Source: an uncultured Pseudomonadota bacterium
GTDB lineage: Bacteria > Pseudomonadota > Alphaproteobacteria > RF32 > CAG-239
Assembly (NCBI GenBank): GCA_949295025.1
Contig: CASFJK010000016.1
Location: 1 to 33,869, forward strand
Length of the DNA: 33,869 nt
Direction of reading: 5' to 3'
Positions 1,016 to 10,246 of the stretch are shown piece after piece (position 1 is the stretch's first letter; each line of letters starts with the position of its first letter). The notes beneath the pieces are model-generated. The model saw only the letters and a list, made by a program, of their open reading frames with translations, ran no database searches and was not told where the DNA came from. The translations under genes and the position numbers were made by a program.

Positions 1016-1717
1016 TTATTTTCTTACATCAAATATTTCAAAGGTATTATGAAGATATTCTAATAAGGCTTTATCTTCAAAAAATTTATCACACTCGCTA
1101 TCGGGGGTATTATCGCCTTCTACTTGACGATAGCGTTGCAGATAATATTCTTTTACACCTTTGGCCTTGAGTTCATCGGCTATGGTATAAATATCTTCTA
1201 CACTCAACACTCTTGGGTCACAAGTGGTTCGGCACTCAAATGCTTTTCCGCTTTTGATGAGCATATCCAAGCTCTGCATGGCTTTTTCAAAATGGTTTAT
1301 ACCACCAACGGCTTTGGTATAATGCTCGGCATTCAACGGTGCTTTGATATCAAAGCCTACCCAATCGAGCATTGGTAGAACCTTTGCAAAATGCTCCGGT
1401 CTATAGCCACCTGAGTGCATGCCGACTTGATAGCCCATATCTTTGACTTCTTTGATATAATCTATCAAGCAATCTTGCACCAAAGGCTCGCCACCACTGA
1501 AAACAACGGCATCTAATATGCCTTTTCTGCCCTTCAAAAACTCGGCAAATTTCTCCCAAATAAAATTTGTTTCTGCGCCGATTTTTTGCAAAGCTTTGTT
1601 ATGGCAAAAAGGACAACGCCACGGACATCCCTGCATAAAGACAACAGCGGCCATCTTATTAGGAAAATCGACGGTGCTGAAGGTCTCAACACCGCCGATT
1701 TTTATTTCTTTTTGCAT
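1016..1717 (-). CDS. nrdG: Anaerobic ribonucleoside-triphosphate reductase activating protein (radical SAM)
   Basis: This radical SAM activase uses a [4Fe-4S] cluster and S-adenosylmethionine to generate the glycyl radical on the class III ribonucleotide reductase. The 233-residue protein has the cluster motif C31-x3-C35-x2-C38 within GCPWRCPFCHN and the SAM-binding FSGGEP near residue 75. It resembles the NrdG2-type subfamily rather than the shorter E. coli NrdG. The ATG is at 1715-1717, with a GGA element 7 bases before it. It is the last gene of the nrdD - glycyl-radical peptide - nrdG unit, 15 bases after the small gene. Because its substrate glycine is here on a separate peptide, it presumably acts on that peptide docked to NrdD (inference). 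Confidence 0.93.
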   Translation of the reverse strand: MQKEIKIGGVETFSTVDFPNKMAAVVFMQGCPWRCPFCHNKALQKIGAETNFIWEKFAEFLKGRKGILDAVVFSGGEPLVQDCLIDYIKEVKDMGYQVGMHSGGYRPEHFAKVLPMLDWVGFDIKAPLNAEHYTKAVGGINHFEKAMQSLDMLIKSGKAFECRTTCDPRVLSVEDIYTIADELKAKGVKEYYLQRYRQVEGDNTPDSECDKFFEDKALLEYLHNTFEIFDVRK

Positions 1718-1732
1718 TATTTTCCAATAATA

Positions 1733-1945
1733 CTATTCAGCTGCAATTGCTGTGTAATCTTCTCTTGCTTCCATACCTGCGATTGCTTTGCTCTCAGAGA
1801 AGCATACTCTTGAATAAAACTCAGATTTTTTACCTTTGTTGAACTCAGATACCGGACGCAAATAGCCCATTACTCTGGTCCAAACTTCGCAAGGTTGTCT
1901 TTCTTCATCACTCAATCTAACATCATTAATATTAATTGTAGTCAT
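1733..1945 (-). CDS. Free-standing glycyl-radical domain of class III ribonucleotide reductase
   Basis: This 70-residue protein contains CEVWTRVMGYLRPVSEFNKG, which corresponds to the C-terminal glycyl-radical loop normally fused to NrdD. RVxGY is the glycyl-radical signature, so Gly27 would carry the radical. The following GKKSEFYSR also matches NrdD C-termini; the last ~20 residues are Ala/Glu-rich and unfamiliar. The gene has its own ATG at 1943-1945, preceded by CTGGAG at a normal distance, and lies 33 bases after the nrdD stop and 15 before nrdG. NrdD itself ends in its zinc site and has no RVxGY. The parts therefore look like a split enzyme rather than a duplicate, comparable in principle to the autonomous GrcA/YfiD glycyl-radical cofactor of pyruvate formate-lyase. 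The family assignment is firm; how it assembles is inference. Confidence 0.85.
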   Translation of the reverse strand: MTTININDVRLSDEERQPCEVWTRVMGYLRPVSEFNKGKKSEFYSRVCFSESKAIAGMEAREDYTAIAAE

Positions 1946-1978
1946 TTTTAATATACTCCAGTTTCTAAGATTATTAAC

Positions 1979-4015
1979 TTAAGCAACTTCTTTTCTAGAG
2001 GCTGCGGCTCTTTTTTCTGCCATTTTCTCTTCATCGCAGATTGGGCAGTATTTGTGTTCTCCGGAAATATATCCATGTTTTGGGCACACAGAGAAAGTCG
2101 GAGTTATGGTAATGTATGGTAAACGGTAGTTGGTCAAAACTTTTCTTACCAAATCGCGGCAGACTTTGGCTGAAGACAGCTTTTGTCCCATGTAAAGGTG
2201 AAGAACAGTTCCGCCAGTGTATTTGGTTTGCAAACGAGATTGCAAATCCAAAGCTTCAAACGGATCATCCGTAAAGCCAACCGGCAATTGTGAAGAGTTG
2301 GTATAATACGGATTTTCTTTGGTGCCGGCTTGAATAATATTCGGATAGCGTTTTTTATCTTCACGAGCAAAGCGGTAGGTTGCGCTTTCTGCCGGAGTAG
2401 CTTCCAAGTTATACATATGACCGGTTTCTTCTTGAATTTTTACTAATTGTGCACGGATGTAATCCAAGAACTTCTCAGCAAAATCTTGACCCCATTGTGT
2501 TGCAATGTTTTCTTTGCCATCGGTGTAGTTCAAAATCATTTCATTGATACCATTTACACCAATTGTAGAGAAGTGGTTACGCAAGGTTCCCAAATAGCGT
2601 TTTGTATAAGGATACAAACCATTGTCAATCAAGCGTTGAATAACTTTACGTTTGATTTCCAAAGAAGTACGAGCAATGTTCATCAACTCATCAACACGAG
2701 CAAACAAACCAGCTTCATTACCTTTATAAACATAACCCAAACGAGCGCAGTTGAAAGTAACAACACCGATAGAACCTGTTTGTTCAGCAGAACCAAACAA
2801 ACCATTACCTCTTGCCAACAACTCACGCAAGTCAAGTTGCAAACGGCAACACATAGAACGAATTTGTCCCGGTTTCAAAACAGAATTGATGAAGTTTTGG
2901 AAATAAGGCAAGCCATATTTGGCGGTCATTTCAAACAACAATTCGGTGTTTTCATCTTCCCACGGAAAATCAGGGGTCATGTTGTAAGTTGGAATTGGGA
3001 ATGTGAATGGACGACCTTTAATATCACCTCTCATCATAACTTTGATGTAGGCTTTATTAATCATGTGCATTTCTTCTTTCAAGTCGCCATATGTGAAGTC
3101 TTGTTCAACGCCGGCAATAATCGGGTGTTTATCACGCAAATCTTCAGGGCATACCCAGTCAAAGGTGAAGTTGGTAAACGGTGTTTGTGAACCCCAACGA
3201 GAAGGAACGTTCAAGTTGTAAATAAGCTCTTGGAAAGCTTGTTCAACTTGGTCATAGTTCAACTTATCTACTCTGACGTATGGTGCCAAATAGGTATCAA
3301 CAGATGAGAAAGCTTGAGCACCAGCCCATTCGTTTTGCAAGGTTCCCATAAAGTTAACCATTTGTCCGATGGCTGCAGACAAGTGTTTTGCTGGACCAGC
3401 TTCAGCTTTACCAGGAACACCGTTAAAGCCTTCATGCAATAAGTTTTTCAAAGACCAACCGGCACAATATGCTGCCAACATATCCAAATCGTGAATATGG
3501 ATATCGCCATTGCGGTGAGCTTCACCAACATTAGCCGGATATACGTGGCTCAACCAATAGTTTGCGGTAACTTTACCGGAAACGTTTAAAATCAAACCAC
3601 CGTTTGAGTAACCTTGGTTAGCATTGGCATTAACACGCCAGTCTAATCTTTCCAAATATTCATTGATTGAGCTTTCAACATCAACCATTACTTTTTTATC
3701 AGAACGCATACGATTGCGTTGATCACGATATAAAATATATGCTTTGGCAGTTGCAAAGTAGTTGGCAGAAATTAAAACTTGTTCAACTACATCTTGGATT
3801 TGCTCAATAGATGGCAGAGACTCTGCAAATTTGTGTTTTAATACTTTTAAGACTTGCGCCGTTAAGAGTTGGCTTTCTTCTTCACCAAACTCTCCAGTAG
3901 TTGTACCGGCTTTATTGATGGCATTAAAAATTTTAGTGTTATCAAACGGAGCTAAAGTTCCATCTCTTTTGGTAACGCTCTCAATCGGAGAGGATTTGTA
4001 CTCGGTCTCTGACAT
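1979..4015 (-). CDS. nrdD: Anaerobic (class III) ribonucleoside-triphosphate reductase, catalytic chain lacking the glycyl-radical loop
   Basis: This enzyme reduces ribonucleotides to deoxyribonucleotides without oxygen. The 678-residue chain starts with an ATP-cone allosteric domain (residues ~10-100, VTKRDGTLAPFD), followed by the ten-stranded barrel with HIHDLD (~173) and MCCRL with Cys389/390 on the presumed thiyl-radical loop. A C-terminal metal site follows: C644-x2-H647 and C657-x2-C660. After it only a charged tail remains, so the usual RVxGY glycyl-radical loop is absent and is supplied by the next gene. The start ATG at 4013-4015 has GAAGGG about 14 bases upstream, a rather long spacing. 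Two NrdR-like boxes lie at 4088-4134 in the presumed promoter, fitting NrdR control. First gene of a three-gene unit. Confidence 0.95.
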   Translation of the reverse strand: MSETEYKSSPIESVTKRDGTLAPFDNTKIFNAINKAGTTTGEFGEEESQLLTAQVLKVLKHKFAESLPSIEQIQDVVEQVLISANYFATAKAYILYRDQRNRMRSDKKVMVDVESSINEYLERLDWRVNANANQGYSNGGLILNVSGKVTANYWLSHVYPANVGEAHRNGDIHIHDLDMLAAYCAGWSLKNLLHEGFNGVPGKAEAGPAKHLSAAIGQMVNFMGTLQNEWAGAQAFSSVDTYLAPYVRVDKLNYDQVEQAFQELIYNLNVPSRWGSQTPFTNFTFDWVCPEDLRDKHPIIAGVEQDFTYGDLKEEMHMINKAYIKVMMRGDIKGRPFTFPIPTYNMTPDFPWEDENTELLFEMTAKYGLPYFQNFINSVLKPGQIRSMCCRLQLDLRELLARGNGLFGSAEQTGSIGVVTFNCARLGYVYKGNEAGLFARVDELMNIARTSLEIKRKVIQRLIDNGLYPYTKRYLGTLRNHFSTIGVNGINEMILNYTDGKENIATQWGQDFAEKFLDYIRAQLVKIQEETGHMYNLEATPAESATYRFAREDKKRYPNIIQAGTKENPYYTNSSQLPVGFTDDPFEALDLQSRLQTKYTGGTVLHLYMGQKLSSAKVCRDLVRKVLTNYRLPYITITPTFSVCPKHGYISGEHKYCPICDEEKMAEKRAAASRKEVA

Positions 4016-4087: not shown

Positions 4088-4134
4088 ATACCATATATTG
4101 TGTAAACAAATTGTAAACATTCAAAATATAGTAT
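4088..4134 (-). promoter_or_regulatory. Tandem NrdR boxes upstream of nrdD
   Basis: ATACCATATATTGTGT (4088-4103) matches the known NrdR palindrome ACACwATATATwGTGT at nearly every position. ATTCAAAATATAGTAT (4119-4134) is a weaker second copy. The boxes are 31 bases apart start to start, i.e. three helical turns, the spacing typical of NrdR operators. They lie 73-119 bases before the nrdD start, where the promoter is expected. Confidence 0.7.
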
Positions 4135-7355: not shown

Positions 7356-8288
7356 TTATTTCTTCTGAGCTTTCCTTTTTTTGAGTAGCGTCAACTTATC
7401 GCTAACAATAGAAGTGTCTCTTCCGGTTTTGGCCAAACGATCATACATGCGCTCTATTTCTTTTTCTAAATATGCTTGCTCAACTTCATTAGCCAGTTCG
7501 TTTTTGGCATCTTGTGTTCCTTGTTTTTCAATATTCAGCATTTGCTCATATATATCTTCAACATGCACAGAGCTATCAGTTTTCTTTTTTACAAAATATG
7601 GTAACTCATAAATCAACTGTCTGGCTTGAGCATAAGCTTCTTTAGTACTGTCTGTTTTGTGATAACGCAATTTCAAAAGACGGAAAACGATGCTTAATTC
7701 ATTACTATTATCAACTACAATAAACGGAACAGGGTCTGCAAAACCTTCTAAAGAAATAAATTTCAAATATTCTACAAGATGATGAAAGAACCCGTTAACA
7801 TTATATAAAATAAATGGTTTTACCGCTAACAAACCATCTTGCATGGCAACACAATCATATGCTAACTCATCCAAGGTGCCGACACCACCGGGAGCAAAAA
7901 CCACAAAATCAGCATTAAGGAGTTTTTGTTTTCTTTCCTCCAAAGTTTGTGCCACAATTACATCTTCAATTTGTGAGATGATTTCATCACTTTGATAAAG
8001 ATTGTAATATTCCTTAGTGGTAATTCCTTGAATTGCAGATGCCTTATCTTTGTTATGTTTCCAGCCATCTAATACACCTTTGGCTACAGCACCCATAATA
8101 CCGCTGCTTGACAGACCAAAGTCTAACTTAAATTCCATTCTGGCAATTTGTCTGCCTAAATTATAAGCTTCTTCGACATAAAGTTCATCATTTCCGGAGC
8201 GAGAACCACCGGCAACAAAAACTCTTAATCCTTTTCTGGAATTTTCTTCGGCAAAACTACCGACCATATCATTCATATTTGTATCCAT
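7356..8288 (-). CDS. LOG-family nucleotide-binding protein (Rossmann-like, possible phosphoribohydrolase)
   Basis: The 310-residue protein has the LOG signature PGGVGTLDE (about residues 132-140) and an N-terminal FVAGGSRSGN nucleotide-binding loop. LOG proteins cleave nucleoside 5'-monophosphates such as cytokinin ribotides to the base and ribose 5-phosphate, although bacterial members are often of unknown substrate. The last ~90 residues are a charged helical extension ending in KKRKAQKK, longer than classic LOG proteins of ~190 residues. It is the second gene after tgt with a 10-base gap and an AGGAGA-like site, so probably in one transcript. Confidence 0.85.
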   Translation of the reverse strand: MDTNMNDMVGSFAEENSRKGLRVFVAGGSRSGNDELYVEEAYNLGRQIARMEFKLDFGLSSSGIMGAVAKGVLDGWKHNKDKASAIQGITTKEYYNLYQSDEIISQIEDVIVAQTLEERKQKLLNADFVVFAPGGVGTLDELAYDCVAMQDGLLAVKPFILYNVNGFFHHLVEYLKFISLEGFADPVPFIVVDNSNELSIVFRLLKLRYHKTDSTKEAYAQARQLIYELPYFVKKKTDSSVHVEDIYEQMLNIEKQGTQDAKNELANEVEQAYLEKEIERMYDRLAKTGRDTSIVSDKLTLLKKRKAQKK

Positions 8289-8298
8289 TTAGGTTCTC

Positions 8299-9435
<1,137 letters not shown>

Positions 9436-9507
9436 TTACATAAAATTATAATGCCTTTGATAATGCCTTGATTTCTATTTTTTAGCAAGAAGAATATATG
9501 AAGAATA

Positions 9508-9541
9508 ACTAAAAAAGGCATCATTAAGATGCCTTTTTTAG
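9508..9541. terminator. Intrinsic terminator after phoB, bidirectional
   Basis: The stem AAAAGGCATC/GATGCCTTTT (loop ATTAA) has six A to the left and six T to the right. It begins directly at the stop of the response-regulator gene and overlaps the upstream region of tgt. Confidence 0.85.
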
Positions 9542-10246
9542 TTATTCTTCATTTTCTCCAATCGGATTTTTGTCAATGGCATATCCAGTAGCTCGAACTG
9601 TGCGGATATAGTCCGGACCAAATTCATTTAACGATTTTCTTAAGCGTCGGATGTGAACATCTACCGTGCGGGATTCAACATAAATATTATCTCCCCAAAC
9701 CGTTTTTAACAAATATTCACGAGAAAAAACTTTCCCTGGAGTTTCCATCAACATACGCAATAAACGAAACTCTGTCGGACCAAGGTGAATATAATTTTCG
9801 CCTCTAAATACTTTTTTCGACGTGATATCCATAACAATATCTTCAAAAACCAATTCTTTTTCATCTGCCGGTTCAGGAGCGCGACGCAATTGCGTTTTGA
9901 CACGAGCCATAAGCTCTGGAATTGAAAAAGGTTTGGTTACATAGTCATCAGCACCGGCTGACAAACCTTTAATTTTATCTTCTTCTTCACCTTTTGCCGT
10001 CAGCATGATAATCGGAATACTTTTTATATCAGGTTTACTGCGAATCATTTTGCAGATTTCGACGCCTGAAAGTTCCGGCAACATCCAATCTAAAATAATG
10101 ACTGAAGGCATATTTTGTTCAACTTCGGCAACCGCTTTTCCTCCACGGGCCTCCCATAAAACATCATAGCCTTCTTTTTCCAGATTATATTTTAACAACA
10201 GGGCTAAAGCTTCTTCATCTTCAACCAACATAACCTTATGTTTCAT
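9542..10246 (-). CDS. phoB: PhoB-type response regulator (REC + winged-helix DNA-binding domain)
   Basis: The 234-residue protein has a receiver domain with acidic pocket E9/D10, phospho-acceptor D53 (ILDWMLPE), switch T83 and K105 (VTKPF). It is followed by an OmpR/PhoB winged helix (about 130-228) with FSREYLLKTVWG and SRTVDVHIRRLRKSL, very close to PhoB. PhoB activates phosphate-starvation genes when phosphorylated by PhoR. No phoR, pst or phoU gene is beside it, so the gene stands alone; another OmpR-family regulator of the same subtype cannot be excluded. Confidence 0.88.
   Translation of the reverse strand: MKHKVMLVEDEEALALLLKYNLEKEGYDVLWEARGGKAVAEVEQNMPSVIILDWMLPELSGVEICKMIRSKPDIKSIPIIMLTAKGEEEDKIKGLSAGADDYVTKPFSIPELMARVKTQLRRAPEPADEKELVFEDIVMDITSKKVFRGENYIHLGPTEFRLLRMLMETPGKVFSREYLLKTVWGDNIYVESRTVDVHIRRLRKSLNEFGPDYIRTVRATGYAIDKNPIGENEE

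Follow-up and report, generated by a model that had tools for sequence, protein, structure and literature searches.

A class III ribonucleotide reductase with its glycyl-radical loop encoded by a separate gene, and stand-alone copies of the loop in genomes and phages

The locus described here raises the question of whether a class III ribonucleotide reductase (RNR) carries its radical glycine on a separate protein, and whether such a protein could act as a replaceable part. The locus lies on contig CASFJK010000016.1 (assembly GCA_949295025.1) of an uncultured Pseudomonadota bacterium (Alphaproteobacteria; RF32; CAG-239). The whole stretch analysed, positions 1 to 33,869 of the forward strand (33,869 nucleotides), is referred to as the window. 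Three open reading frames (ORFs) are concerned: nrdD, a small gene of 70 amino acids (aa) termed the loop gene, and nrdG. Together they probably specify a two-chain class III RNR, with the radical glycine on a docking subunit and with extra and phage-borne loops as exchangeable spare parts. Table 1 lists the features.

The NrdD chain matches positions 2 to 531 of the 562 in the Pfam NRDD profile (587.7 bits) and scores 1123.7 bits against NF006126, for which the cut-off is 548. By these matches it is the catalytic subunit of a class III RNR of the NF006126 subfamily. The Pfam match stops just past the metal ribbon CPKHGYISGEHKYCPIC, which by sequence contains Cys644, Cys657, Cys660, and one His. 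The C-terminus reads ...CPKHGYISGEHKYCPICDEEKMAEKRAAASRKEVA. A sequence scan found no R..GY motif anywhere in the 678 aa, which agrees with the first-pass annotation of this DNA, where NrdD was described as ending in its metal site without RVxGY.

The 70-aa peptide matches positions 531 to 562 of the same 562-position profile with 36.2 bits (cut-off 26.2) and carries CEVWTRVMGYLRP, including Gly27. A chance motif was considered and rejected because the peptide passes this cut-off. The spacer between nrdD and the loop gene is 33 bases long and contains CTGGAG. The start of nrdG lies 15 bases past the stop of the loop gene, and a dedicated radical-SAM activase (NrdG2, TIGR02495) is thus encoded next to it. 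Sequence and Pfam match bear out the proposed order, in which the loop has its own ATG and ribosome-binding site 33 bases downstream of nrdD and is followed by nrdG. Taken together, the two predicted chains amount to a single NrdD, divided after the metal ribbon and before the radical loop.

Table 1. Features of the nrdD locus, in positions of the window.
Feature	Position	Strand	Basis
nrdD main chain, 678 aa, with ATP-cone, catalytic barrel, and metal site, without glycyl-radical loop	1979..4015	-	ORF and profile matches
ATP-cone, residues 13-101	3713..3979	-	Pfam PF03477, E 7.6e-25
Codons Cys389-Cys390, presumed thiyl-radical cysteine region	2846..2851	-	Inferred from motif SMCCRL
Metal-site ribbon CPKHGYISGEHKYCPIC, residues 644-660, retained on NrdD main chain	2036..2086	-	Sequence
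TAA stop codon of nrdD, same frame as the loop ORF	1979..1981	-	Sequence
CTGGAG, likely ribosome-binding site of loop gene	1956..1961	-	Sequence and relatives
Loop gene, 70-aa glycyl-radical subunit with its own ATG	1733..1945	-	Pfam NRDD match
RVMGY motif	1862..1876	-	Radical glycine Gly27 codon = 1865-1867
nrdG-type activase, 233 aa, NrdG2 family	1016..1717	-	TIGR02495 193 bits, cut-off 131
Possible NrdR-box-like palindrome upstream of nrdD	4088..4103	+	2 mismatches; weak

The fused class III NrdDs of Prevotella copri (8p23 series), phage T4 (1h7b), and Thermotoga (4coi) likewise have the barrel, the metal ribbon, and the radical loop with its place in the fold, and the P. copri enzyme shares the ATP-cone. 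The difference is that the loop is a separate gene product here, while the metal ribbon remains on the large chain. In an AlphaFold2 model of one tethered read-through chain, the loop lies at the same place as in solved NrdDs. This modelled placement supports the first-pass interpretation in part.

The nrdD and loop ORFs of the window are in the same frame and a single TAA separates them. An assembly error, a pseudogene, or stop-codon read-through could produce such a picture. With one frame and one stop involved, the split would be undone by a substitution or by read-through, and not by the frame-joining indel that the first-pass annotation had named. The loop protein was searched for in 54 genomes, own included, and is present in 31 of them. 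In 29 of the 30 fetched loop loci (own included), nrdD, the loop gene, and nrdG all lie within the stretch; the remaining locus has the loop alone. Spacers across the fetched loci occur in frames 0, 1, and 2. The five other loci from the same genus have spacers of 32 to 35 bases; four of these loci are in frame 2 and the fifth is in frame 0. Two loci (L015 and L018) had their start codons set too far upstream in the spacing table, and their negative gaps are artefacts. GGAG lies 20 bases or less from the loop start in 25 of the 29 linked loci, own included.

A scan of named genomes gave at least 546 loci, of which the best 80 were kept. Among these 80, a whole or partial nrdD lies upstream on the same strand in 58, and it is fused to the loop in none of the 58. 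Their spacers range from -4 (a 4-base overlap) to +176 bases and fall in all three frames. Three others of the 80 (L091, L141, and L142) are at contig ends adjoining nrdG. On the spacing in relatives and the GGAG ahead of the loop start, assembly error and read-through were rejected; error, pseudogene, or read-through is almost certainly not the explanation of the split. A hidden second full-length nrdD was rejected too. The whole-genome NRDD search of the own genome found no match beyond the main chain and the 70-aa peptide, and this earlier-named objection falls away.

The first-pass annotation had hinted that the split might be special to this lineage. The hint is not supported: genes of this NrdD group are usually split, the split is found in several phyla, and RefSeq annotates it. 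The suggested search for loop-less NrdDs with an adjacent small loop gene found many. Split operons are present in Cupriavidus, Bradyrhizobium, Paracoccus, Sulfuricystis, Shinella, and Sulfuricurvum. The best 80 named-genome loci add Sutterella, Parasutterella, Herbaspirillum, and Afifella, together with metagenome genomes that bear the labels Coriobacteriaceae, Acidobacteria, and Chlamydiae. Fused relatives are those of Actinomyces oris, Acidiphilium, and genome G404. By these sequence comparisons, NrdD genes of the sampled group are as a rule split. A set of 397 Pseudomonadota genomes, own included, contains 66 with an NRDD match, 65 of them over the cut-off. With the table read by eye, 19 of these 65 NrdDs are split (own included) and 46 are fused; most of the fused ones are taken, from their higher scores, to be of the E. 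coli type.

In RefSeq, the small gene is entered as nrdD, anaerobic ribonucleoside-triphosphate reductase, for Cupriavidus necator, Bradyrhizobium, Sulfuricystis, Sulfuricurvum, and Shinella, and the Paracoccus record labels it hypothetical. No published description of a split NrdD loop was found in the open-licence literature searched, which consisted mostly of titles and abstract starts with some passages.

Genomes G321 and G389, of one genus, have an E. coli-type NrdD that ends after the metal site and is followed by the loop with its own ATG, which by sequence is a separate split. In genome G338, about 9 kb separate nrdD from the loop, which is accompanied by an activase-like ORF (named by eye). 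A family tree made by a quick method kept 55 rows of 116 after near-copies were thinned, with 25 E. coli-type rows omitted. One further locus (L200) was left out since its state was unclear at that point, and it later proved to be a separate split. The tree contains 47 split and 8 fused rows and at least four state changes, two of them forced by well-supported branches. With many open forks and long branches in the tree, any direction of splits and refusions read from it would be tentative.

The same split is present on plasmid pHG1 of C. necator H16 (H16_RS32680, 32675, and 32670), in the order nrdD, small nrdD, nrdG. The loop there is 66 aa long with a spacer of 142 bases, and the host is betaproteobacterial, whereas the one here is alphaproteobacterial. 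In 1999, Siedow reportedly described a 76.2-kDa NrdD from C. necator, and its G650A mutant is said to have been read as marking the radical glycine. The C. necator NrdD is 676 aa and 76.19 kDa and has no R..GY near its end. Position 650 of this chain falls on the glycine within the metal ribbon CPTHGY, and RVMGY is on the 66-aa neighbour. If this account of the older paper is accurate, the radical-glycine assignment in C. necator may need revisiting. Available passages of a later paper (PMC2864759, citing Siedow 1999) report NrdDG as essential for complete denitrification in C. necator H16. For C. metallidurans, a paper on this species lists NrdD and NrdG as Rmet_5137 and Rmet_5139. A loop match is present in the replicon with these two genes and may be Rmet_5138.

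Other RNRs in pieces differ from this one. NrdJa/NrdJb of Pseudomonas aeruginosa, an RNR of class II rather than class III, is not known to have a separate radical loop. It likewise extends over two consecutive ORFs, according to passages of PMC4009431. The nrdD of Jug phage is likewise in pieces, and the excerpted text of PMC12363816 has no splicing seen at the boundary between its 230-aa and 91-aa parts. The pieces are attributed there to introns and homing genes, with some spliced back, and the nrdD core is present.

The first-pass annotation had compared the loop to GrcA/YfiD of E. coli. This protein and Y06I of phage T4, one from a host and one from a phage, are likewise small and free, with homology to the radical loop of a glycyl-radical enzyme (passages of PMC8683613). 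According to the same passages, YfiD and Y06I rescue oxygen-cleaved pyruvate formate-lyase. The loops here would by analogy rescue an RNR instead. The enzyme supported by GrcA possesses a loop in its own chain, and the NrdD here does not. The linked peptide is therefore expected to be obligatory for the enzyme, and a spare-part character to be limited to the extra copies. The analogy stands for a small stand-alone loop protein with unlinked copies, and fails where the enzyme lacks a loop in its own chain.

In the proposed mechanism, the NrdD main chain holds the ATP-cone and the barrel together with the metal ribbon and the presumed radical cysteine. The small subunit of 70 aa would dock in trans beside the active site and bring the radical glycine loop. 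NrdG would charge Gly27 on the docked peptide, and the radical would move from Gly27 to the cysteine at each turnover. Oxygen would cut only the cheap peptide, leaving the large chain reusable with an exchangeable subunit. Unlinked and phage loops would be spare parts that keep the host enzyme active in infection or after oxygen.

A rival possibility is that NrdD and the loop are produced together and no exchange ever takes place, the loop being a normal obligatory subunit, the split having no repair role, and the extra copies being mere duplicates. The linked gene, the conserved order, and the single loop match in 26 of the 31 loop-bearing genomes fit this explanation, and we regard it as possible, if somewhat doubtful. 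It leaves unexplained the unlinked copies under purifying selection and the loops in many viral records without NrdD. The other five of the 31 genomes have more than one match; eight of their extra loop loci were fetched and no nrdD is in any stretch. Unlinked copies account for 19 of the best 80 named-genome loci. A plasmid of Allochromatium vinosum also has a loop gene without nrdD nearby. The occurrence of the loop gene alone, without NrdD, looks new.

Fifteen genomes were searched whole; they were chosen for unlinked loops and give no measure of frequency. In 14 of them, a loop-less NrdD and a linked loop are accompanied by at least one further loop, and G479 has NrdD on one contig and three loops on others. 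The unlinked chromosomal loop adjoins clpB in three genomes (L107, L119, and L120) and is near an RNase-HI-like gene, named by eye, in three (L140, L148, and L166). The ratio of nonsynonymous to synonymous change (pN/pS) was taken over a 37-codon core. The sequences used were 16 linked, 8 unlinked chromosomal, and 16 phage-assigned ones, and six of the phage-assigned ones come from genome contigs attributed to phages by eye. The medians are 0.16 for linked, 0.24 for unlinked chromosomal, and 0.16 for phage-assigned copies, which are rough values as synonymous sites are near saturation.

Viral loops were collected from IMG/VR in two scans. The first gave 29 loci; in the second, which was alignment-based, the best 80 of 253 were kept and 55 were new. 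Whole-record NRDD searches covered 79 records, namely all 29 and 50 of the 55 new ones. The NrdD catalytic core is over the cut-off in none of 78 loop-carrying records, and the 79th (G071) has a split NrdD of its own. One of the 78 (G082) has no NRDD match at all, its loop being interrupted by a stop. The remaining five new loci have no NrdD within the fetched stretch. In genome G478, a contig of about 80 kb is a 42,130-base phage unit repeated head-to-tail at 99.968%. Its gene families include terminase, connector, tail genes, endolysin, integrase, and reverse transcriptase. The whole-genome search found two loop matches on this contig and no NrdD. Stand-alone loop genes in relatives, on a plasmid, and in phages add evidence to the replaceable-part idea. 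For the further claim that free loops, including those on many different NrdD-lacking phages, are a replaceable part, and that phages bring a fresh radical subunit for anaerobic synthesis of deoxynucleoside triphosphates (dNTPs) by the host, we consider the evidence evenly balanced.

Among PHROGs families, the loop of L131 and a seven-protein set, except for ANMV-1, match phrog_4132 best, which is of unknown function; weaker matches are to NrdD families. In 80 of the 84 viral loci the core is readable, under a filter that demanded Gly-Tyr; the viral consensus differs from that of linked genome copies at 4 of 36 positions and from that of unlinked copies at 3 of 36. Phage loops could instead be decoys or radical sinks that inhibit host NrdD or NrdG, as a loop on its own might tie up NrdG or fill the docking site. 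This is unlikely, given the 3 to 4 differences in 36, although with search bias, and given that phages need dNTPs and that T4 Y06I supports its target enzyme (passages of PMC8683613). In L048, L054, L131, and L133, the loop lies just ahead of a convergent integrase-like ORF, confirmed as integrase for L131 and L054. This position would suit a relic of an attachment site left by integration beside nrdD. Such an origin is very improbable, as phage loop genes are complete, the linked host locus is intact and on another contig, and the G010 prophage is near a gyrase-B-like ORF (by eye) and not nrdD.

Several points weigh against a two-chain enzyme with spare loops. The modelled chain is a tethered read-through, which favours docking, and its predicted local distance difference test (pLDDT) is below 50 at residues 387 to 394, around Cys389-390. 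The small gene is already annotated in RefSeq, for example in C. necator. Of the 23 loop-less genomes among the 54, 12 were searched for NRDD; 11 have no match, and in G006 (86% complete) a NrdD is present but no loop was detected. Among the 15 genomes chosen for unlinked loops, three (G484, G487, and G488) contain a further NrdD, or pieces of one, with matches up to position 560, and their extra loops might thus serve another enzyme. The viral records with loops are mostly fragments, and the gene-family check of their viral nature covered two loci, L131 and L054. Some of the loops in viral records appear broken, with a frameshift in L074 and a stop in L076, and G502 has a second weak NRDD match (486-538) under the cut-off. 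The viral-loop scans relied on conserved motifs including the glycine, whose constancy is partly by construction.

Some further observations concern the viral sequences. The 42-kb phage copies (L131/L132, G478:C42) differ at 11 clustered positions a few hundred bases from the reverse transcriptase, as a diversity-generating retroelement would give. In the GenBank phage collection, a loop match was found in ANMV-1 only. This archaeal virus has a 144-aa NrdD-like gene (L086, 3686-4120) that matches the C-terminal end only and is possibly another free loop. Eight viral contigs (L066, L068-L073, and L075) have much longer ORFs when TGA is read as sense, and seem to read it so. In L069, L073, and L075, the codon at loop position Gly38, invariant elsewhere, is TGA, which suggests a glycine code. 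TGA encodes glycine in Absconditabacteria and Gracilibacteria. A phage NrdD core in L065 (about 7389-9782) is interrupted near the cysteine site by about 125 codons in one open frame, possibly an intein.

Two features of the window lie outside the three genes. NrdR-box-like matches number 4 against 0.75 expected, a weak signal. Positions 185-844 encode a Cys-rich, secreted-looking protein close to the window edge.

In passages of a 2021 study (PMC8683613), YfiD and T4 Y06I are the sole validated spare parts, and others may exist for glycyl-radical enzymes. The free loops described here are direct candidates for spare parts of RNR, a further glycyl-radical enzyme. With them, the question can be tested in bacteria that grow in culture, Cupriavidus necator for one. 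Should phages use these loops, this would be a new way of steering the dNTP supply of the host without oxygen.
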